Shown: positions 3,418 to 18,893 of the stretch, one piece after another | Numbering within the stretch: the first letter of the stretch is position 1 | Layout of the letters: the number at the start of each line of letters is the position of its first letter | Origin: Paenibacillus sp. G2S3 | Lineage (GTDB): Bacteria; Bacillota; Bacilli; Paenibacillales; Paenibacillaceae | Direction: 5' to 3' | DNA: 64,000 bases | Assembly: GCF_030123105.1 (NCBI RefSeq) | Contig: NZ_CP126095.1 | Coordinates: forward strand, 6,262,001-6,326,000 | Made by a program: the position numbers and the translations under genes | Notes under the pieces: model-generated | The model's database searches: none | Told to the model about the DNA's origin: nothing | Seen by the model: the letters and a program-made list of their open reading frames with translations, nothing else

Positions 3418-3493
3418 TTAAAAAGGACCACCCCAGCAGTAGATACCCCTACCGACTGAGATGACCCTCTTATCATTAGTGCGCTTCAGTCCT
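3418..3493 (-). terminator. Possible branched terminator after ychF
   Basis: Right after the ychF stop, minus-strand RNA can pair AGGAC (3489-3493) with GTCCT (3424-3428), followed by a short U run. An alternative GACTGA/TCAGTC pairing (3454-3459 with 3486-3491) competes with it. The loop is large, so this is weaker than the other terminators here. Confidence 0.35.
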
Positions 3494-6770: not shown

Positions 6771-7910
6771 TTATTTACGTATTAAACGGGAAGTCCCACG
6801 TAAAGTTGCTAAATCGGGAGCTCCGATACCAAACATTGCTATCTTAAGCTCCAGCTCTACCTGAGCCAGTGCAGCATCTAGCGCCTCTTCAGAATCTACT
6901 GCCGGTCCTAACAGATTGCGTCCAAAGCCTGCTAAATCAGCACCGAGTGCCAATGCCTTCGCTGCATCCACGCCATGCTTCAGGCCGCCGCTGCCAATCA
7001 AAGCCCCCTTCGGGGAGACAGCACGTACCTCTGCAATGCAATCTGCGGTTGGAATACCCCAGTCCGCGAAAGCTTCAGCTGCTGCGCGCCGTATAGGGTC
7101 TACACTGCGGAACTTCTCCACCTGACTCCAGGATGTTCCACCTGCCCCCGCCACATCAACAAAAGCTACCCCTGCATTATAAAGACGTGCTGCTGTATCA
7201 CCGTCAATGCCCCAGCCCACCTCTTTCACACCTACAGGAACCTCTAGTGCACGGCATACTTTCTCTATCTGCGATAGCAAGGACACAAAGCCAGTGTTCC
7301 CTTCCGGTTGAAAGACCTCTTGAAGACCATTGAGATGCAGTACAAGAAAGTCTGCACCAGCTATATCCACAGCCCTGCGGCATTCCTCAATCCCGAAACC
7401 ATAGGACAGCTGTACGGCACCAATATTAGCAATAACCGGTATGTCAGGTGCTTTGTCCCGTACATAAAAGGTTTCGGTTAACTCTGAACGCTCCACCGCC
7501 GCCCGTACAGATCCAACACCCAACGCCCATCCTCGACGCTGCGCCGCCTCCGCCAGTCGAGCATTAATAGCTCCGGTAGCTGCACTGCCACCTGTCATCG
7601 AGCTGATCAGCAGCGGCGTACGTAGTTCACGTTCCAGGAACGTAGTCTGCAATGATATATCATCGAAATTCAGCTCTGGAAGAGCATTATGCCGAAATCG
7701 GTAATGTTCAAAACCCGTAGTCACACCAACGCCACCGACTTCCTCATTTAGACAAAGGCGTACATGTTCTATTTTGCGTTCACCCGTCTTTGATGTAGGC
7801 AATAAAGACTTCTTATCTGAAACCTCTACAGTCGATAGGTCATTACCATGATCGGCGCCAGACTGCCTATTCGCATCATATGGTACGGCCTCTTCTGGCG
7901 TATGATTCAT
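6771..7910 (-). CDS. fni: Type 2 isopentenyl-diphosphate delta-isomerase (FMN)
   Basis: Interconverts IPP and DMAPP with reduced FMN, supplying prenyl precursors. Motifs seen are RKIEHVRLCL at residues 45-54, SSMTGGSAATGAINARLAEA, GVKEVGWGI, GAGGTSW and the FMN-binding SGGLKHGVDAAKALALGAD stretch. At 379 residues it has about 40 extra, polar N-terminal residues compared with the usual start. The upstream ATG is kept because AGGAGGAACGGAGC precedes it closely. It lies just downstream of the carotenoid operon on the same strand but carries an own promoter. Function fits supply of C5 units for that operon. Confidence 0.94.
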   Translation of the reverse strand: MNHTPEEAVPYDANRQSGADHGNDLSTVEVSDKKSLLPTSKTGERKIEHVRLCLNEEVGGVGVTTGFEHYRFRHNALPELNFDDISLQTTFLERELRTPLLISSMTGGSAATGAINARLAEAAQRRGWALGVGSVRAAVERSELTETFYVRDKAPDIPVIANIGAVQLSYGFGIEECRRAVDIAGADFLVLHLNGLQEVFQPEGNTGFVSLLSQIEKVCRALEVPVGVKEVGWGIDGDTAARLYNAGVAFVDVAGAGGTSWSQVEKFRSVDPIRRAAAEAFADWGIPTADCIAEVRAVSPKGALIGSGGLKHGVDAAKALALGADLAGFGRNLLGPAVDSEEALDAALAQVELELKIAMFGIGAPDLATLRGTSRLIRK

Positions 7911-8024: not shown

Positions 8025-9500
8025 CTACGCATGGCTAGCAATATGCTCACCGACTAACCTTCCCGATAACGAGACGATCGGTGTGCCACCGCCGGGATGT
8101 GTAGTTCCACCTACATACCAGAGTCCTTTAACATCGCTTGAACGGTTGCCTGGTCTGAAGAAGGTCTGCCCTACCGAGTTCGAGGAAATCCCATAGATCG
8201 CGCCCTTGTGAGCCAATGTGTCATCTGCGATATTTTGAGGTGTATAATGTTGGAGCACATCGCTCTGATCTAAGCCTGTAATTCCATGGCTCGCAAGCGC
8301 CGAAAGTACTCTTTTACCATAGGAAGCAGTCTCTGTCCGCCAATCACAGGCCTCATTTATATAAGGTGCATTAGCCAAAATAAACAGATTACTGCTTCCT
8401 TCAGGGGCCATGCCTGACTCAGAGTATCCAGAGTGACATACATAAACGGTCGGATGCTCGGGAGGACGTTTGCGTTCAAAAATATCTCTAAACTCTAACT
8501 CATACTGCTCAGGGAAAAACACCGTGTGATGTAATAGAGCATCATATTTACGAGGAACACCTGCGAGTGTTACAAACCCTGATAAAGAGGGCTCATAAGC
8601 AGCGATTTTGCGATCACTCATAGAAGGACGGCTATTCTCCTGCACAAGCATACGGTTAACTGTGAGCACATCTCCTCCTGCAACAACCGTCTTCGCCTCG
8701 TAAAAGCCTCGTGTTGTATCCACACCTTCGACTACTCCATTTACCACGGAAATATTCGTAACTTCAACCCCTGTCATGATGCGAACCCCTAAGCCTTGTG
8801 CCAGTTCCGAAAGACCTTCGACCAGCTTATAAGTTCCGCCCCGCACACCATAAACTCCTTCTACACTTTCCACATATCCAAGCATGGCGAAAATAGCTGG
8901 TGAACGAAACGGGGAAGATCCGACGTAGGTAGCGTAGCGACCTAACATCGCTAAGGTGTGAGGATGGCTAAAGTATCTCAATAAGAGTGAATGCAAACTT
9001 AAAAAAGGCCTGACTCGCAGCAGATCCCGTAGTAGAGGAAGAGACAGCTTATCTCGCCAGGACAACAGCAATTTATTTAAAAACTGCTTCTCACTGAGTT
9101 GATAGAGCATAGCAGCTTCAGCCATAAAATCATCGTACCGGAGCGCATCACTTGAACTATATTTAGCAATCTGAGCCTTCATAAACGCTTGATCGCGAGA
9201 GAAATCCACTACAGTTCCATCCGTAAAAATATTGCGTGTACGCGGCTCCAGCTCATATATTTGGACATAATCCTCCATGGAAGCACCCGCAAGCTCATAC
9301 AGTGAGCGAAATACATGAGGCATTGTTATCGTGCTAGGGCCCCTGTCAAAGGTATAGCCATCGATTTCAATCCGTTGCAGCTTGCCACCAGGATTCTGTT
9401 GGCGTTCCAGCACCGTCACCTCCCAGCCTTTCGAGGCTAAGGTTACAGCACAGGACAGTCCACCGAATCCCGCGCCGATGATTACTGCCTTTGATTTCAT
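8025..9500 (-). CDS. CrtI/CrtN-family carotenoid oxidase/desaturase (third paralogue, CrtP/CrtNc-like)
   Basis: An FAD-dependent carotene desaturase-fold enzyme, 491 residues. The dinucleotide-binding GAGFGGLSCA is at residues 8-17, and the C-terminal FAD motif FRPGNRSSDVKGLWYVGG leads to THPGGGTPIV. ATG at 9500 was chosen because it overlaps the glycosyltransferase stop as ATGA and GGAAGG lies eight bases upstream; an earlier in-frame start has no such support. Its C-terminal block resembles enzymes that oxidise the ends of diapocarotenoids (CrtP/CrtNc) more than the first desaturase. That assignment is inference. Last gene of the overlapping operon. Confidence 0.85.
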   Translation of the reverse strand: MKSKAVIIGAGFGGLSCAVTLASKGWEVTVLERQQNPGGKLQRIEIDGYTFDRGPSTITMPHVFRSLYELAGASMEDYVQIYELEPRTRNIFTDGTVVDFSRDQAFMKAQIAKYSSSDALRYDDFMAEAAMLYQLSEKQFLNKLLLSWRDKLSLPLLRDLLRVRPFLSLHSLLLRYFSHPHTLAMLGRYATYVGSSPFRSPAIFAMLGYVESVEGVYGVRGGTYKLVEGLSELAQGLGVRIMTGVEVTNISVVNGVVEGVDTTRGFYEAKTVVAGGDVLTVNRMLVQENSRPSMSDRKIAAYEPSLSGFVTLAGVPRKYDALLHHTVFFPEQYELEFRDIFERKRPPEHPTVYVCHSGYSESGMAPEGSSNLFILANAPYINEACDWRTETASYGKRVLSALASHGITGLDQSDVLQHYTPQNIADDTLAHKGAIYGISSNSVGQTFFRPGNRSSDVKGLWYVGGTTHPGGGTPIVSLSGRLVGEHIASHA

Positions 9501-10657
9501 AAGTAACGCCTTCCTTTCCATTCATAGCCTTGACCGGGACGACTGCCCCACCAAGAACTAGTCGCAATGGCTACCAAACAGAGGATACTTACAGAAATCA
9601 GCAAGCATAACCATACCGATTGTCTGGCAGACGCATCACTAATCCGCTTAATAGCAATGCCTAACAGACTAGCCGACAGCGCCCATGTTACCTCAGCAGC
9701 CTGACCTGTCACACTGAAAAAAATAAACGCCGCTAAAGGAAACACATATAAGAGCGTATACATGCTTAACATCGCCAGCAGAATAAAAGGGCGGCGGCCC
9801 AATCCAGCATAAATATTTTTGCGGTAGCCTTTCCATACCTCGCTGGCATTATGATACATTCTCATTTCCGCATATTCCGTAATATCGGCGAGTGTAACCT
9901 GATCTCCAGCCTTCTTGACCGCACGAGCTAAGGCCATATCATCTACGAGATCCGATCGAATCGCCGCATGACCACCACAGCGCATATAACTATTCCTGTG
10001 AACCAGCATGAATCCTCCATGCGCTGCTACGAATCGTGGATCGCGGGAAGCACGGACAAGGGGAATTGGCAAATGACAAATGATCGTGAAGGTCATTAAA
10101 GGTACCACAAGCTTTTCCAGCCAAGTCCCAGTATGCTGATAAGCAAATCCTGTGATGAGGCCCTCCTCCTGAGCATCAGCCATGGCAAGAGCGTTCTCCA
10201 AAGCTTCAGGCTTCAGCCGAATATCTGCATCAAGATACAGCAGCCACTCTCCAGAGGCGACTTCCATCAACTGTTTGCAGGCATAAGACTTGCCTAACCA
10301 GCCATCCGGCAACTCTCTTCCGGTCACAACCTTAACACGCTTATCTCCTATAGCTCTGGCAATCCTACCTGTTTCGTCATTGGATCGGTCATCCAGAACG
10401 ATAATCTCCAAGTCCCACCCTGTACTTGTACAGGCCAATACGGAAGCAAGACAATCCCCTATATTGTCAGCCTCATCACGGGCAGGTATCAGTACAGACA
10501 CACGTCCATTACATTCAATCGTAGAAGAACTCATAGTACCCATAGAGTTATATTTCGACTTTGATGCCCCAAGCTTCGGTAGCTGGGCTGTATTCCACAG
10601 TGCAAATAAATATTGAAGGAGGAGACATCCAATAATGATCTGAAGAAAAAGAATCAT
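9497..10657 (-). CDS. GT2-family membrane glycosyltransferase (CrtQ/CruG-like)
   Basis: Likely transfers a sugar to the carotenoid end group. An N-terminal membrane helix is followed by the GT2 fold: VSVLIPARDEADN near residue 54, then LDDRS and DADIR (metal/nucleotide-binding aspartates), then further hydrophobic helices at the C-terminus. 386 residues. It overlaps both neighbours by ATGA. In the known staphyloxanthin pathway CrtQ glycosylates the carboxylated carotenoid, and in other bacteria CruG glycosylates the CruF product. The adjacent cruF-like gene makes the second comparison relevant. The sugar and acceptor cannot be read from sequence. Confidence 0.83.
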   Translation of the reverse strand: MILFLQIIIGCLLLQYLFALWNTAQLPKLGASKSKYNSMGTMSSSTIECNGRVSVLIPARDEADNIGDCLASVLACTSTGWDLEIIVLDDRSNDETGRIARAIGDKRVKVVTGRELPDGWLGKSYACKQLMEVASGEWLLYLDADIRLKPEALENALAMADAQEEGLITGFAYQHTGTWLEKLVVPLMTFTIICHLPIPLVRASRDPRFVAAHGGFMLVHRNSYMRCGGHAAIRSDLVDDMALARAVKKAGDQVTLADITEYAEMRMYHNASEVWKGYRKNIYAGLGRRPFILLAMLSMYTLLYVFPLAAFIFFSVTGQAAEVTWALSASLLGIAIKRISDASARQSVWLCLLISVSILCLVAIATSSWWGSRPGQGYEWKGRRYL

Positions 10658-12136: not shown

Positions 12137-13009
12137 TTAATACACCGCCATTCTGCCCTTGCCTCCCAAACTTGGCGCATAACGCATAGCGGTACGATGG
12201 AACATTCGAAGCTTAGCCTCATCACTGACGTAAGCACGCCTGCGAAATACATCGTAATTACCTGCGGCCACATCATCGAGAATACCTGCATAAAAGGCGG
12301 CGGCTAATTCTACTGCCATCCCACTTTCCGGGGGATAGGTATCTACATTATTCAGCCCCTTCTCAAACCACAGCAGTGCCTCTCTTCTAAGATCCTGCAA
12401 TACAGCTACAAAGCACTCATTAACCACTCCACGTTCCAGCTCCTGCTGGCTGTACCCGTTCTTTCTCATGATTTCCAAAGGAATATACCTTCTTCCGCGC
12501 TCTAGATCTTCACCCACATCACGGATAATATTTACGATCTGCATACCAATACCAAGAGCGATCCCTGCTTCCTGGGCTTCATCGCCTCCGTCCTCTCTCA
12601 GCACAGGGAGCAGCATCTCTCCTACAGTACCTGCTACGAGATAACAATAAGATAGAAGCTCTTCCAGCGTCTCATAATGAGTGAAGGAGAGATCTCTTAC
12701 CTGACCTTCCATTTGTAACAGAAACGGCTGTTTATCCAAATGAGGAAAATGATGCAGCAACCAACGTAGTGCAGGCCAGATGAAATGCCCCTCTGCTTCC
12801 TCTAAGTTTCGGAAATGATTTCGGAGCTCATGAATCGTATAAGATGATTTTTCCGGCTCATCTACACTGTCGTCTATTAAGCGGCAAAAGGCATAGATTA
12901 CATGCACCGCCTCCCGTCGTGGACTAGGCAAGCCATCAAATGCCCTGTAAAACGAAGAAGAACCCCTTCTGATCATTTCCTCACATTTCTGTAATACTTG
13001 TTCATTCAT
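12137..13009 (-). CDS. Phytoene/squalene-synthase-family enzyme (CrtB/CrtM)
   Basis: Head-to-head prenyl condensation: two GGPP to phytoene, or two FPP to dehydrosqualene. 290 residues with both Asp-rich motifs, DDSVD near residue 50 (inside FCRLIDDSVDEPE) and DVGED near residue 168 (NIIRDVGEDLERGRRYIP). It overlaps the upstream desaturase by ATGA. Chain length (C30 or C40) cannot be decided from sequence by eye. The three CrtN-like genes suggest C30; the CruF-like gene is better known from C40/C50 pathways. Confidence 0.9.
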   Translation of the reverse strand: MNEQVLQKCEEMIRRGSSSFYRAFDGLPSPRREAVHVIYAFCRLIDDSVDEPEKSSYTIHELRNHFRNLEEAEGHFIWPALRWLLHHFPHLDKQPFLLQMEGQVRDLSFTHYETLEELLSYCYLVAGTVGEMLLPVLREDGGDEAQEAGIALGIGMQIVNIIRDVGEDLERGRRYIPLEIMRKNGYSQQELERGVVNECFVAVLQDLRREALLWFEKGLNNVDTYPPESGMAVELAAAFYAGILDDVAAGNYDVFRRRAYVSDEAKLRMFHRTAMRYAPSLGGKGRMAVY

Positions 13010-14478
13010 GTATTGTTCATCTCCTTCATCAGTTCATGAACTGCCAATTTTGCGCCCTGCATAACAATAGGAACGCCGCCGCCAGGATGCACAGATGCAC
13101 CAGCAGCATATAAACCTTCAATATTGTAGGGCTTAGACTGAGGTCGAAACACACCGGATTGTGTCAGCACGGGTGCGATCCCAAAGCTTCCACCGCCGAA
13201 CAAACCTTCCTTGGCAGCATCAGCCGGCGTACGTACTTTTCTCCAGACTGTATGAGCAGCAAGCCCAGGAAAACCTCGCTCTTCTGCGTCTGCCATTATT
13301 TGTGAAGCCAAGGACTCTGCCGCCGTATCCCAATCGATTCCCTCACCGGAAGGTACTGGTACGAGAAAATAAAGTACACTTTCTCCTTCAGGAGCCGCAG
13401 TATCATCGAGCATTACCGGATTAAACACATAATAGGAAGGTTTATCAGGGATTCTTTTACGATCAAACAAATCACGTAAGCTCTCATTCAAGGAATCAGG
13501 AAGAAAGAACTGATGTGTTAGCGACTCCTCCCATTGTTTGGAGACTCCTACATAGATGAGCAGACAGCCTGAAGAAGGCATGAAATCCCTACGGCGCTGT
13601 CTCCTTTCATCTCCTTCAGATAAGGCAGGTAAAAGATCGGACAAGTGTGGAAAATCACCGTTGTAGAGCACGGCATCGTAAGCTATCTCTTGTCCATGGA
13701 CAACTACTCCGTGGCATCTGCCGCCTTCCACAAGTAGCGACTCTACTTCCGTACCTGTGTGCATGCAGACTCCGCGTCTTTCTAGCTCTCGTGTAATGAT
13801 TCGAGGCAACTCCCCATATCCTCCCTTCAGCATCCAGACTCCAAAGGCATGCTCTGCATAAGGAAGCATTGTATAAAGACCGGGGGTGCGGAAAGGTGCT
13901 CCACCAATGTATAGACTCTGAAGCGAGAAGGCATCCTTCAACTCATCACTGCGAAAATACTGCCCAACTGCGGCCCTAAGATTCTTATAGGCGCGTAAAC
14001 GAACCATTAGTCTCAAATTGTTCACGCTGAAGAATTCCCTGCGAGTCTTGAAGCCTCGTTCCAGAAAAGAAGCTTTCCCTAAGGGATACAGACCCGACAT
14101 CTCTTTCATGAACCTAATGAATCCTTGCCCTTCACCGGGAAAACATCTCTCGATCTCAGCCGCCTGCGCCTCTATTCCGTTCACTTTGGTCAAGGTACGT
14201 CCACTCTTAAAATGAACACGGTAGAGCGGATCGCACCGTAACAACTCCAGACTCTCCGGTGGTAGGCCACCCTCTTCCAGAATGCTCAGCAGCATCTCCG
14301 GTAGTAGTACAATTGTCGGTCCTTGATCGATCCGGTAACGGCCATTCTCTTCAAAAGCAACACGTCCACCAACACGAGGTGCACGTTCATACACCGTAAC
14401 CTCCTGCCCACGCTGGCTTAGCAGAAGTGCTGCTGTAAGACCGCCTATGCCGCTACCCACAATAGCAACCCGGCTCAT
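13006..14478 (-). CDS. CrtI/CrtN-family carotene desaturase (second paralogue)
   Basis: A 490-residue flavoprotein. It has the N-terminal FAD motif GSGIGGLTAALLLSQRG at residues 8-24 and a C-terminal IEGLYAAGASVHPGGGVPIV block. The FFLPDSLNES segment in the middle is found in this superfamily. It overlaps both neighbours by 4 bases (ATGA). Together with the 14475 gene it may share the sequential desaturation steps; which enzyme does which step is not readable here. Confidence 0.86.
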   Translation of the reverse strand: MSRVAIVGSGIGGLTAALLLSQRGQEVTVYERAPRVGGRVAFEENGRYRIDQGPTIVLLPEMLLSILEEGGLPPESLELLRCDPLYRVHFKSGRTLTKVNGIEAQAAEIERCFPGEGQGFIRFMKEMSGLYPLGKASFLERGFKTRREFFSVNNLRLMVRLRAYKNLRAAVGQYFRSDELKDAFSLQSLYIGGAPFRTPGLYTMLPYAEHAFGVWMLKGGYGELPRIITRELERRGVCMHTGTEVESLLVEGGRCHGVVVHGQEIAYDAVLYNGDFPHLSDLLPALSEGDERRQRRRDFMPSSGCLLIYVGVSKQWEESLTHQFFLPDSLNESLRDLFDRKRIPDKPSYYVFNPVMLDDTAAPEGESVLYFLVPVPSGEGIDWDTAAESLASQIMADAEERGFPGLAAHTVWRKVRTPADAAKEGLFGGGSFGIAPVLTQSGVFRPQSKPYNIEGLYAAGASVHPGGGVPIVMQGAKLAVHELMKEMNNT

Positions 14479-16019
14479 AATGACGCTCCCGTTCCGGCGA
14501 ATCCTGTGGATACGACCTTAGATCTTGCTTCACGGTCTTGCTCCTTCAGCAGCGCCACACTAATTTTCGCCGATTCAAATATCGTCGGAAGACCACTTCC
14601 GGGATGAGTTCCTCCGCCAACCAACCAGATTCCCTTGACCTCTTCAAAGGTGTTATGAGGTCGCATATACATCATCTGCCCGAGATTATGAGCCAAATTA
14701 AACGTTGCACCGTTATATACATTCAGCTTGTTCCGCCAATCCAGTGGCGAGAAGAACAAACTCTCCTCTATTCTCTGAGGCAAATTCTCTAGACCTGGAA
14801 TACGCTGCAGACGCTCCATCATATCTTGCTTGACCCATTCACCCTCCTGCTCCCAATTAACATCAGCCGTCAGGTTGGGCACTGGCATCAGCACGTAAAG
14901 AGATGACTTGCCTGCTGGGGCCAACGTAGGATCTAACACCGAGGGATTATGAACGTATATCGAAGCGTCCGCGGAAAGCTTGCCAAGCCGCGTGAGCTCA
15001 TCTACATTAAGCCGATAATCTTCAGCGAAATGAACGGAGTGATGAGCTAAATCAACGGCTCCGTCGACTCCCAAATACAGCATCGCGGTAGAACAAGAGT
15101 ACCTCTTACGGGATATTTTATCCGGTGAATAACGTTTAAGAATGCCAGGCTCAAATAACTGTGTCATAGCCGAACCAAAATCGGCTCCCAGCACCACATA
15201 ATCGGCCTCCACCTTCTCTCCATTCTCCAGCAATAAACCACACGCTTGCCCGTTCTGTACCAAGACTCGCTTTACTCCGCAAGAAATATGTACGATTCCA
15301 CTGTACTCCGAAATAATCTTTGCCATTGCCGTTAGCACACGGTTAATTCCACCAATAGGATGATACAGTCCATATCGGTGCTCCATAAAAGAAAGAATGG
15401 TGAAGGTACCCGGGCATTCCCACGGCGACATCCCCAAATATTTAGCCTGAAATGCAAAAGCAAATCTCAGACGTTCATCATCAAAATATTTTGAAAGTCT
15501 GTTGTACACAGTGTCGGTTGCATGCAGTTTAGGTAGCGCGTGCAGAACATCTTTTTTGACATAGTCTCCTATAGATTGAAAAGGCCGCTGTAATAGCGGA
15601 ATCACCCGGTCCAACTTATCCTGTTCCTCAGCCATGAATCGTTTATATCCACTACCGTTTCCGGGGAACAACTTCTCTATCTCTTCAGCGGTCCGCTCTT
15701 GATCCGTAGAAGGGGTAAATACGGTATCTCCAAAATGAAGCGAATAAAGCGGGTCAAGCTCTTTCAAATCCACATAATCTTTCAGGGATCGACCAGCGGA
15801 GGCAAATAACTCTTCCAGCAAATGCGGCATCATTAAAAATGTAGCTCCACGATCAAATCGGTAATCACCCAGACGAAGTTCACCTGAACGACCTCCAACA
15901 ACCTCCTGCTTCTCATAAACTGCGACTTCATAGCCGTCAGCAGCTAGGAGCATAGCAGCAGCAAGCCCTCCCGGACCCCCTCCAACCACCGCAACCCTAG
16001 CTGTGTTTCTTCTACTCAT
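14475..16019 (-). CDS. CrtI-family phytoene/diapophytoene desaturase (first gene of operon)
   Basis: A 514-residue FAD-dependent desaturase. The dinucleotide motif GGGPGGLAAAMLLAADG begins at residue 12, and the C-terminal signature runs from YNGATFNLAHNLGQ through WLVGGGTHPGSGLP, the classical CrtI ending. It is the first gene after the regulated promoter, and its ATG is preceded by GGAGGGATCGT. Of the three paralogues it looks closest to the canonical desaturase that acts directly on the colourless precursor; this ranking is inference. Confidence 0.88.
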   Translation of the reverse strand: MSRRNTARVAVVGGGPGGLAAAMLLAADGYEVAVYEKQEVVGGRSGELRLGDYRFDRGATFLMMPHLLEELFASAGRSLKDYVDLKELDPLYSLHFGDTVFTPSTDQERTAEEIEKLFPGNGSGYKRFMAEEQDKLDRVIPLLQRPFQSIGDYVKKDVLHALPKLHATDTVYNRLSKYFDDERLRFAFAFQAKYLGMSPWECPGTFTILSFMEHRYGLYHPIGGINRVLTAMAKIISEYSGIVHISCGVKRVLVQNGQACGLLLENGEKVEADYVVLGADFGSAMTQLFEPGILKRYSPDKISRKRYSCSTAMLYLGVDGAVDLAHHSVHFAEDYRLNVDELTRLGKLSADASIYVHNPSVLDPTLAPAGKSSLYVLMPVPNLTADVNWEQEGEWVKQDMMERLQRIPGLENLPQRIEESLFFSPLDWRNKLNVYNGATFNLAHNLGQMMYMRPHNTFEEVKGIWLVGGGTHPGSGLPTIFESAKISVALLKEQDREARSKVVSTGFAGTGASL

Positions 16020-16050
16020 ACGATCCCTCCTTCACAGCTTTATATGTCAA

Positions 16051-16060
16051 TTAAACGTTA
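16051..16060. promoter_or_regulatory. TTAAACGTTA element, crt side
   Basis: The 10-mer TTAAACGTTA, preceded by GTCAA, lies between the iterons and the first carotenoid gene. The same 10-mer, preceded by GTCA, recurs at 17242-17251 in the regulator's promoter. Function unknown. Confidence 0.4.
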
Positions 16061-16110
16061 TACAAAAATCATACAAACACTATACAAATATCATACAGTG
16101 TTTATACAGC
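16058..16110. promoter_or_regulatory. CarH-type operator: five ATACA iterons at exact 11-bp spacing
   Basis: ATACA starts at 16060, 16071, 16082, 16093 and 16104, each exactly 11 bp apart and in the same orientation. CarH of Thermus is known to bind tandem 11-bp direct repeats with a TnTACA core. Copies 1, 3 and 5 read TATACA and copies 2 and 4 read CATACA. Copies 4 and 5 overlap the -10 and spacer of the carotenoid promoter, and 1-3 cover the start of transcription, so binding should block initiation. Confidence 0.8.
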
Positions 16111-16118
16111 TATGTAAA
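16090..16118 (-). promoter_or_regulatory. Promoter of the carotenoid operon
   Basis: On the minus strand TTTACA (16113-16118) and TATGAT (16090-16095) are separated by 17 bases; each is one mismatch from the sigma-A consensus. The predicted leader before the ATG at 16019 is about 65 bases. It is embedded in the iteron array. Confidence 0.65.
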
Positions 16119-16146
16119 TAACTCTGTAGGATCCCTCCTTTTTCAA

Positions 16147-16192
16147 TAAAAAAAGAGCCTGCCATATCACCCAAAAGTGATATTACAGACTC
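16147..16192 (-). terminator. Terminator of the MerR/B12 regulator gene
   Basis: Minus-strand stem GAGTCTG/CAGGCTC (16186-16192 with 16155-16161) enclosing ATATCAC/GTGATAT, followed by seven U. It insulates the regulator gene from the carotenoid promoter. Confidence 0.85.
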
Positions 16193-16225
16193 CTATTTAT
16201 ATATCTATTTTCTTGATCAGAAGGA

Positions 16226-17149
16226 TTACTTGATCTTCATACTTGTAAACACATGATCAAACCACGCTTGCCAGTGTTCAGCAGGTTCCGTCATCACATA
16301 ATCCGCTTTAGATAAAGAAGGGTCTCTTTCATAGCCCTTGCCACCTACGAGGAATTTAGCCCCTGGACATACCTTTCTTAGCCGCTCTATAAGCTCCTCA
16401 CTAAAGGGTACCAATTCTTTATCCGTAATCGATAGACAAATCAAACCTACCCGACTTTGTTGTTCCAACATCGAGATGATCCCTTCCTCAGGCGTGTTAG
16501 CTCCTAAGTAGATAACCTCCATTCCGTTTTTGCGCAAAAACAAGGCGAATAACAACAGCCCGACTTGATGATGCTCTCCTGCAGGGCAGAAAGCCAGCAC
16601 CTTCGGCAAATGGGAGTAAACGGGGAATACGTGGAATATTTGATAGAACCGGTTGGAGATCATATGCGTGGTGTAATGTTCTTGCGCTACCGTTGCTATA
16701 CCAGCTTCCCACGCATCCCCTACTTGTATCAAGATTGGCACAAGTACCTGATGGAACATTGCTTCATAACCATAAAGAGATAAACCAAAGTCAATTAAGG
16801 CATTAGCTCGCTCTCCCTGAAAGTCATGTAGTGCATTGTATATTTGTTCTTTCATTTTCTCAAAAGCATCCTGAGTATTTCCGCTTGCGACTGAAAGCGT
16901 ATCATCCAGTTGTTTTTCTTTACGAGCCTTCAGCATTCGAACAGCATGCGATATGCTTACCCCTTGCTGCTCGGTCTGTTCCTTCAGCCAGCGCAGATCC
17001 TCGACATTCTCATGGCTATACAGCCTGTACCCGGATTCGGTTCGTTCAGGTGTAACCGCCTGATACCGGTTCTCCCAAGCTCTGAGAGTCACAGAAGGAA
17101 TATCCAGCATTTCAACAACCTGTTTGATGGAATACATGATAGAACTCAC
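16226..17149 (-). CDS. MerR-family regulator with B12-binding domain, CarH/LitR-type photoreceptor
   Basis: A 307-residue regulator: MerR helix-turn-helix at residues 5-72 (YSIKQVVEMLDIPSVTLRAW), a helical bundle, and a C-terminal cobalamin-binding domain. The CarH adenosylcobalamin motif Wx9EH is intact as W147 ... E157-H158. The ExHxxG lower-ligand motif is E192-x-H194-x-x-G197. In Thermus CarH a His follows the Trp and takes the upper axial position after light; here that residue is Glu148. Start GTG at 17149 with AAGGA upstream; ATG four codons later is possible. It lies head-to-tail upstream of the carotenoid operon with matching iterons in both promoters. Inferred role: AdoCbl-bound repressor in the dark, released by light. 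Confidence 0.88.
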   Translation of the reverse strand: MSSIMYSIKQVVEMLDIPSVTLRAWENRYQAVTPERTESGYRLYSHENVEDLRWLKEQTEQQGVSISHAVRMLKARKEKQLDDTLSVASGNTQDAFEKMKEQIYNALHDFQGERANALIDFGLSLYGYEAMFHQVLVPILIQVGDAWEAGIATVAQEHYTTHMISNRFYQIFHVFPVYSHLPKVLAFCPAGEHHQVGLLLFALFLRKNGMEVIYLGANTPEEGIISMLEQQSRVGLICLSITDKELVPFSEELIERLRKVCPGAKFLVGGKGYERDPSLSKADYVMTEPAEHWQAWFDHVFTSMKIK

Positions 17150-17192
17150 TCTCTTTCCTTATTGCAACTGCCCAAATTCGCAATCCTAAACA

Positions 17193-17223
17193 TTATACAA
17201 ATCTTTCACACTCATTATACATA
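17193..17223. promoter_or_regulatory. Autoregulatory iterons in front of the MerR/B12 gene
   Basis: ATACA occurs at 17195 and 17217, exactly 22 bp (two 11-bp steps) apart, with a degenerate TCACA at the middle step (17206). The set overlaps the -10 box, suggesting autorepression. It has fewer and weaker copies than the carotenoid operator. Confidence 0.65.
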
Positions 17224-17242
17224 AGCCTATGTGTTATGTCAT
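17214..17242 (-). promoter_or_regulatory. Promoter of the MerR/B12 gene
   Basis: Minus-strand ATGACA (17237-17242), 17-base spacer, TATAAT (17214-17219). The -10 overlaps the third iteron. Confidence 0.65.
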
Positions 17243-17251
17243 TAAACGTTA
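17242..17251. promoter_or_regulatory. TTAAACGTTA element, regulator side
   Basis: Second copy of the 10-mer found at 16051. Here it abuts the -35 box and forms the core of an imperfect palindrome, TCATTAAACGTTAATGA. Confidence 0.4.
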
Positions 17252-17363: not shown

Positions 17364-18893
17364 ATGACATCAGATCGCGAACAACCCGTTCAGCCACAAA
17401 CGATTCAAGATCAACCCTATATTCTTGCGCCAAAGAAACGCTCTTCTTCACGCCGCAGCAAACGAGTGATATGGGTTTTCGTTATTTTAATTCTCTGGTT
17501 AACCGGTGTAATGATATATCAGACACATAAACCTCTTCCCGCAGGGATTTCCTATGAAAGCCCCATGTACAAAGTAAATAATGTATCCTTCTGGCATGAC
17601 CTTACCTATCCAGACGGTACGGACACAGGTAAGCAGGAGAGTGAAATTCTTCCGAGAATGCTACAAATCATCGAGGAATCTAGGGAGTTCTTAGTCATTG
17701 ACCTCTTCCTATTTAATGATTATACCCATAAGGATCAGTCGTTCCCTCCTGTCAGTCGAATGCTGACAGATAAGTTAATCTCACAAAAGCAAGCCTTTCC
17801 CGAAATGGAGATTGTCTTCATTACCGATGAGGTCAATACCAATTACAATTCAGCACCCAATCATCTTCTGGAAGAAATGAAGGCCGTAGGGATACGAGTT
17901 ATTATGACTGATGTTAATGCGCTGCGAGATTCTACCCCTGCTTATTCAGCCGTCTGGCGCACCTTCATTCAATGGTTTGGACAATCCGGTAAGGGTTTTA
18001 TCCCCAATCTTATGGCCAGTGGTGGTCCGGATATAACCGCTCGATCTTATCTGAAGCTGCTCAATGTGAAGGCTAATCACCGTAAAGTGGTTTTAAGCGA
18101 GAATACCGCTCTAATCTCCTCTGGAAATGTCCATGACGCCAGCGCCTACCACTCCAATATTGCTCTAGAGGTGCAAGGTCCAATTCTCGCTGATATTCTC
18201 CAGACAGAACAGGCTGCGGCCAATCTATCAAATGCAGGACCACTTCTGAATCATGAGCCAAATTTCACTCAAGAAAAGAACCAGCCCTCTGCAGAACCTT
18301 TGGAAGTGCGGTATATAACGGAAGGAAAGGTCTATAAATATGCGCTTCAAGGCATCAGGTCCGCCCAGAAGGGGGATACCGTATGGATGGGTATGTTCTA
18401 CCTTGCTAACGATGCCATTCTGGATGCGTTGGTAGAGGCTACATCACGCGGAGCTAAAGTAAACCTAATCCTGGATCCAAATCAGAACGCCTTCGGTCGT
18501 GATAAAATCGGGATCCCTAACCGTCCAGTTGCCATGGACCTGAACAAGCGTACGAACGGCAAAATCTCTATTCGTTGGTACAATACGACCAAAGAGCAAT
18601 ATCATCCGAAGCTGCTCTTTATCGCCAAACAAACCGAGAGATCCATCATTCTTGGCGGTTCTACCAATTTCACCACCCGCAATCTGGATGACTACAATCT
18701 TGAGAATGATCTGTGGATTTCTATGAATCGAGATCAGCCGCTTTATACAGAAATGCAAGCCTACTTCAATCGTCTGTGGAATAACGAGGGTCATGCGTTC
18801 ACTTTACCTTTGGAGGCCTATCAGAGCGATGTGACCTGGTACAAGTACATTCTGATCCGGTTGCAGACCAACCTGGGCTTCACCACTTTTTAA
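17364..18893 (+). CDS. Membrane-anchored phospholipase-D-like protein
   Basis: 509 residues. A basic N-terminus and one membrane helix at residues 35-51 are followed by an extracytoplasmic domain with two PLD repeats. The repeat motifs are HRKVVLSE (about residue 239) and HPKLLFIA (about residue 413), the second followed by GGSTNFTTRNLDD. His and Lys of HxKx4D are kept in both, but the Asp is Glu in the first and Ala in the second. Start ATG with AGGAGG eight bases upstream. It is transcribed away from the MerR/B12 gene and towards cls. A phospholipid- or nucleic-acid-directed phosphodiesterase role is possible; substrate unknown. Confidence 0.78.
   Translation: MTSDREQPVQPQTIQDQPYILAPKKRSSSRRSKRVIWVFVILILWLTGVMIYQTHKPLPAGISYESPMYKVNNVSFWHDLTYPDGTDTGKQESEILPRMLQIIEESREFLVIDLFLFNDYTHKDQSFPPVSRMLTDKLISQKQAFPEMEIVFITDEVNTNYNSAPNHLLEEMKAVGIRVIMTDVNALRDSTPAYSAVWRTFIQWFGQSGKGFIPNLMASGGPDITARSYLKLLNVKANHRKVVLSENTALISSGNVHDASAYHSNIALEVQGPILADILQTEQAAANLSNAGPLLNHEPNFTQEKNQPSAEPLEVRYITEGKVYKYALQGIRSAQKGDTVWMGMFYLANDAILDALVEATSRGAKVNLILDPNQNAFGRDKIGIPNRPVAMDLNKRTNGKISIRWYNTTKEQYHPKLLFIAKQTERSIILGGSTNFTTRNLDDYNLENDLWISMNRDQPLYTEMQAYFNRLWNNEGHAFTLPLEAYQSDVTWYKYILIRLQTNLGFTTF

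Follow-up and report, generated by a model that had tools for sequence, protein, structure and literature searches.

A probable CarH/LitR-type B12 light switch with two operators at the carotenoid locus of Paenibacillus sp. G2S3

Introduction

The published operator consensus of CarH is TnnACA (PMC9304148, PMC8156234), and the CarH of Bacillus megaterium binds as an AdoCbl tetramer to four such repeats, or to three and one degenerate repeat, which overlap the -35 or the -10 element (PMC9304148, PMC6739363), while the illuminated protein is a dimer, not a monomer (PMC9304148). Literature statements here and below refer to the available parts of the cited papers. For the genus Paenibacillus, Table 1 of PMC6739363 marks as light-responsive one isolate that is closest to P. 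alvei, and the available text on P. aurantius does no more than list a 'Cobalamin B12-binding domain-containing protein' next to CrtNa, with the word MerR absent from that text (PMC10673419). No worked-out CarH photoreceptor was found in the mostly open-access literature searched for Paenibacillus, and it is in this setting that a conserved and compact B12 light switch with two operators matters.

The stretch of DNA analyzed here, referred to as the window, comprises 64,000 nucleotides (6262001-6326000) of the single-contig, 6.70 Mb genome of the soil bacterium Paenibacillus sp. G2S3. A sequence-only reading had proposed a CarH-type light/B12 switch over the carotenoid promoter, and this proposal is supported by the domains and motifs of the regulator, the closest structures, two operators, their conservation among genomes of the genus, the joint occurrence of regulator and crtN1, and a Thermus control. 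The locus very probably encodes a CarH/LitR-type AdoCbl photoreceptor-repressor with two operators, and it is most likely a well-conserved switch of an already known kind, of which this member is new.

Gene order of the carotenoid locus

The locus is read from the minus strand in the order regulator, crtN1, crtN2, crtM-like, CruF-like, acyltransferase, glycosyltransferase, crtN3 and idi2, and it thus shows the linkage to carotenoid genes that is usual, not universal, for CarH/LitR. The phytoene-desaturase-family genes crtN1 (14475..16019) and crtN2 (13006..14478) are followed by genes for a crtM-like squalene/phytoene synthase (12137..13009), a CruF-like carotenoid biosynthesis protein (PF04240, 11360..12136), an acyltransferase (PF01553, 10654..11412) and a family 2 glycosyltransferase (9497..10657), then by a further phytoene-desaturase-family gene, crtN3 (8025..9521), and, 114 bp after it, by idi2 (6771..7910), which encodes a type 2 isopentenyl-diphosphate isomerase scoring above the NCBIfam cut-off.

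A terminator-like stem-loop with a U-run (16146..16194, minus strand, z -6.06) stands between carH and the crt promoter, suggesting that carH and crt are two transcription units with an operator each. The element came from a separate z-score analysis, with a simple terminator scan finding none, and a similar element was present in 31 of 38 relatives. In the window, and likewise at most loci of the 44 relatives, a PLD-domain gene (17364-18893 of the window) is oriented divergently to carH; it might be co-controlled with carH, since the self-operator of carH sits inside the gap that the two genes share.

Domains, motifs and predicted structure of the regulator

The regulator gene (16226..17149, minus strand) encodes a protein of 307 aa from the GTG start listed, with an ATG at 17137 as an alternative start. 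From the N- to the C-terminus, the protein carries a MerR-type HTH, a B12-binding helical domain and a Rossmann domain, as in CarH/LitR, with Pfam MerR_1, B12-binding_2 and B12-binding each above cut-off. The CarH/LitR motifs Wx9EH and ExHxxG occupy residues 147-158 and 192-197, and these positions, together with the Pfam matches, bear out the MerR HTH and the motif-bearing B12 domain of the sequence-only reading. The AdoCbl/light signature of GxxW, EH, GxxH and GxxxP is complete, and in the alignment W147, E157, H158 and H194 correspond to Thermus W131, E141, H142 and H177.

The nearest sequence match in the PDB was the Thermus CarH/LitR (E about 1e-28), with an identity to Thermus CarH of about 31%, and the nearest homologues among named relatives were from Paenibacillus. 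The best-scoring NCBIfam model was that of CarH (NF052513), at 141 bits against a 400-bit cut-off that serves as a naming threshold. The AlphaFold model had a mean pLDDT of 90.4 and a pTM of 0.66, and its best twelve Foldseek matches were all Thermus CarH chains. The TM scores over the full-length query were low (0.52-0.61) because the domain placement differs, with the B12 part alone reaching about 0.8 of the target. As to cofactor supply, the genome encodes one PduO-type adenosyltransferase and contains three cobalamin riboswitches.

Operators and promoters in the window

The crt operator (16055..16109, plus strand, antisense to the operon) is built from five units of 11 bp that keep ACA in register. 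Five ATACA without spacing error had been reported from the letters, and they indeed lie at 16060, 16071, 16082, 16093 and 16104 in exact 11-bp steps (16060-16108); ATACA-N6-ATACA has four matches in the window, all of them in this array, against a mean of 0.07 and a maximum of 1 in 100 shuffles. Units 1, 3 and 5 read TATACA and units 2 and 4 read CATACA, giving T-C-T-C-T at the T5 position, so that under the strict TnnACA consensus only units 1, 3 and 5 are full repeats. Genome-wide, YATACA-N5-YATACA has six matches, four of them in the crt array, and this count proves nothing alone because the backwards pattern gives five.

The self-operator of carH (17190..17222, plus strand) is composed of three strict tandem repeats, TATACA, TTCACA and TATACA. 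The earlier description held as to ATACA at 17195 and 17217 and fell short in counting two repeats only, since TTCACA at 17205-17210 lies between them and makes three. The triple is the sole exact one in the genome and the reversed control likewise gives one, so it matters for where it lies and for its conservation, not for the genome-wide count.

Both promoters predicted previously under the repeats, TTTACA-17-TATGAT for crt (16090..16118, minus strand) and ATGACA-17-TATAAT for carH (17214..17242, minus strand), exist at these places, with the -10 inside unit 4 and inside repeat 3, respectively. By itself the promoter scan is weak (4 matches vs 3.3 in shuffles). Both arrays span the -10 element and extend into the transcript, and tandem 11-bp TnnACA repeats that overlap the target promoter, as in CarH/LitR systems, are found at carH (three strict) and at crt (three strict and two CATACA). 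As a positive control, the strict scan gave the three repeats TGTACA/TTGACA/TATACA in the Thermus crtB-carH gap.

The claim that five repeats surpass the described operators was rejected as a novelty, since the published operators have four repeats in B. megaterium and about five in myxobacteria, and crt operators at the loci compared below also reach five units. A separate candidate, ATTAAACGTTA at 16050 and 17241, was taken as chance; the nearest relative, whose regulator is 99% identical, has AACATT at the first copy.

Conservation across the genus

A total of 100 genus genomes were searched, with the regulator called at E <= 1e-40 and crtN1, the first desaturase, at E <= 1e-120. The regulator was present in 45 genomes, its own included, and crtN1 in 41 of these 45 against none of the 55 others, genomes being counted regardless of kinship. 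In 43 of the 45 loci, the region upstream of carH has at least three ACA in the 11-bp register; the misses were L072, where the spacing is apparently off by one base, and L051, with no array facing carH and one facing the divergent gene. A scan of related genomes for the same iterons upstream of crt genes had been proposed, and at least three ACA in register precede crtN1 in 38 of 39 loci, the miss (L058) being one base off. These crt operators contain three ACA units in 6 loci, four in 21 and five in 11. At least three strict TnnACA units in a row occur in 36 of 45 carH regions and in only 9 of 39 crt regions.

Letters were counted over 130 carH and 157 crt units, in which ACA is fixed by the unit-calling rule. 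T7 was found in 125 carH and 153 crt units, T5 in 123 carH units and only 86 crt units, and A6 in 147 crt units. A promoter similar to that of crt was present in 36 of 39 loci (window included), while one similar to that of carH was present in only 27 of 45. Two other arrays passed the filter in a scan of 44 loci of about 14 kb each.

In 43 of 44 relatives, idi2 is found close to carH, also at loci from which the crt genes are missing. It directly follows carH in G034, whose crt operon is located elsewhere, while G016 and G073 have retained carH, crtN3 and idi2. In G092, a half-operon of cruF-acylT-GT-crtN3 lies on another contig, and four strict repeats precede its first gene (L233 3390-3428). 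The relocated crt operon of G034 is preceded by a palindrome with 18-bp arms, in which a pair of CarH-like repeats is combined with its mirror image (L266 3532-3570), and G004 carries a degenerate form of it (L267, about 3430-3472); a palindromic CarH operator would be unusual.

Off-locus repeats

Exact TNTACA triples off the carH/crt locus were observed at 11 sites in the 45 genomes with carH and at 10 sites in the 55 without it, while the reversed control gave 3 matches across the 100 genomes. A motif-defined genome-wide regulon was rejected as a statistical claim, the off-locus sites not being enriched in carH-bearing genomes, and TCTACATGTTCTTTACATACTACATACA at 6648679 of the own genome was dropped, as among the matches listed it occurs in carH-less genomes too. 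One array of TATACATAAAC-type units, perfect and repeated in tandem every 11 bp (L232 2997-3035), belongs to a genome without a carH match. Four strict repeats were also seen in G037, in the gap that separates a flavin amine-oxidase-like gene from a GGDEF-EAL gene divergent to it (L229 3363-3401).

The photolyase family PF00875 was detected in 31 of 45 carH-bearing genomes against 4 of 55 others (Fisher p 9e-11, genomes counted regardless of kinship), and the search of the own genome gave no PF00875 match. Photolyase as a general CarH target was rejected, with repeats upstream in only one (G034) of the 30 loci scanned among 36 matches; the gene start in L237 was not resolved. In G034, three-repeat sites precede a DNA photolyase/cryptochrome gene and a fasciclin-domain gene (L231 3228-3255 and L230 3379-3406, respectively). 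At L209 (1050-2999), a carH with three strict repeats upstream has a photolyase-like gene nearby, which shares 30% identity with its G034 counterpart.

Pairing of carH with chemoreceptor genes

The chemoreceptor survey covered 188 loci (L037-L224), some of them duplicates and some with short flanks. A carH-like gene divergent from a PAS-MCP gene was found in ten loci (L051, L122, L194, L198, L206, L213, L217, L218, L220 and L221), eight of them from named Paenibacillus; of the other two, L051 belongs to the genus genomes and L122 to a different family of the class. The pairs of L051 and L213 lie at 1508-2434 and 1882-2886, respectively, and the other PAS-MCP genes are 58-79% identical to that of L213. 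Three strict 11-bp repeats between the two genes were found in 3 of the 10 loci, two facing the MCP gene and one facing carH, and the repeats in the gap reached p <= 0.05 in 8 of 10 (500 mononucleotide shuffles each, the per-locus p being uncorrected for ten tests). Together with the detached half-operon operator, these pairs are test cases for the evolution of light regulons.

Proposed switch and alternative explanations

By analogy with the family, the regulator would bind AdoCbl, oligomerize, repress and be released by light. In the dark, CarH oligomers charged with AdoCbl would occupy the tandem 11-bp repeats over the -10/start region and block the crt promoter and the promoter of carH itself. 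Light would break the Co-C bond so that the adenosyl group departs, its loss would loosen the oligomer and release the DNA, and carH and the carotenoid operon, with the IPP isomerase presumably at the end of the crt transcript, would then be expressed.

Thermus His132, the light-state cobalt ligand of the Thermus-type photocycle, is replaced by Glu148 in the regulator, and for this reason DNA release probably proceeds without bis-His cobalamin, as judged from the residues; another His of the regulator could also serve as cobalt ligand. The residue was surveyed in 186 Bacilli loci representing 157 distinct proteins, distant paralogues included, with Glu in 146, Ala and Gly in two each, and Gln, His, Lys and Arg in one each, while Wx9EH is absent from three. 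The sole His belongs to Paenibacillus assamensis (L192), which has five ACA units in register upstream.

The replacement favors an alternative, unlikely in our view, in which the regulator senses the AdoCbl level and represses accordingly, so that pigment is made when B12 is scarce, and in which light would have little effect for want of the His that locks the light state. His132 is described as critical for disassembly in Thermus, and H132A stays mostly tetrameric in light (PMC10442372), but the same paper cites an earlier report of light disassembly of H132A, the position varies within the family, with light-responsive B12 domains having Arg, Gln or Tyr there (PMC11796333), and the two residues that hold the adenosyl group, Trp147 and Glu157, are retained. 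A B12-independent repressor that keeps the B12-site residues and reads another signal or a partner protein, as suggested by the homologous Myxococcus CarA, which functions without B12 (PMC9304148), is very improbable, for the cofactor-site residues are widely retained and the full cofactor/light signature is present in 138 of the 157 proteins, the rest being mostly distant paralogues. That the iterons belong to another DNA-binding protein and adjoin carH by chance is hardly credible: perfect TATACA 11-bp repeats do occur in G035, which lacks a carH match, and off-locus sites are equally common without carH, but nearly all relatives share this motif and register at the two promoters tied to the linked regulator, and they recur in Thermus and at the detached half-operon of G092.

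Under the preferred reading of an AdoCbl photoreceptor-repressor, the points of greater interest are the prevalence of Glu132 among Bacilli and the pairing of carH with chemoreceptor genes, and the 146 distinct natural Glu132 homologues offer material on whether CarH release needs the bis-His light state. We tentatively suggest, as a possibility somewhat short of probable, that the Bacilli hold a whole CarH lineage with Glu for His132, in which DNA would be released without bis-His cobalamin as adenosyl loss or a Glu- or water-bound cobalt loosens the oligomer; the redox-driven His switch would then be a refinement of the Thermus type and not central to B12 photoreception, and a sub-branch would have shifted from pigment to PAS chemoreceptor control, linking B12/light to taxis.

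Comparison with known systems

The locus resembles that of the Bacillus megaterium QM B1551 CarH (LitR), which is also from Bacilli and controls crt genes through tandem 11-bp repeats (PMC9304148, PMC6739363), and differs from it in having operators of five and three repeats. The domain order and the W/EH/ExHxxG sites are those of Thermus thermophilus CarH, whereas Glu stands here for Thermus His132 and the Thermus carH neighbors include phr and ldrP, unlike this locus. The crt operator is also comparable to those of Myxococcus/Cystobacter CarH/CarA, where about five 11-bp repeats, full and degenerate, lie over Pcrt (PMC9304148), although the crt genes there differ. The gene content is similar to that of the terpene cluster of Paenibacillus aurantius, for which IDI, desaturases, CrtM, a GT and an acyltransferase are given in the available text (PMC10673419).
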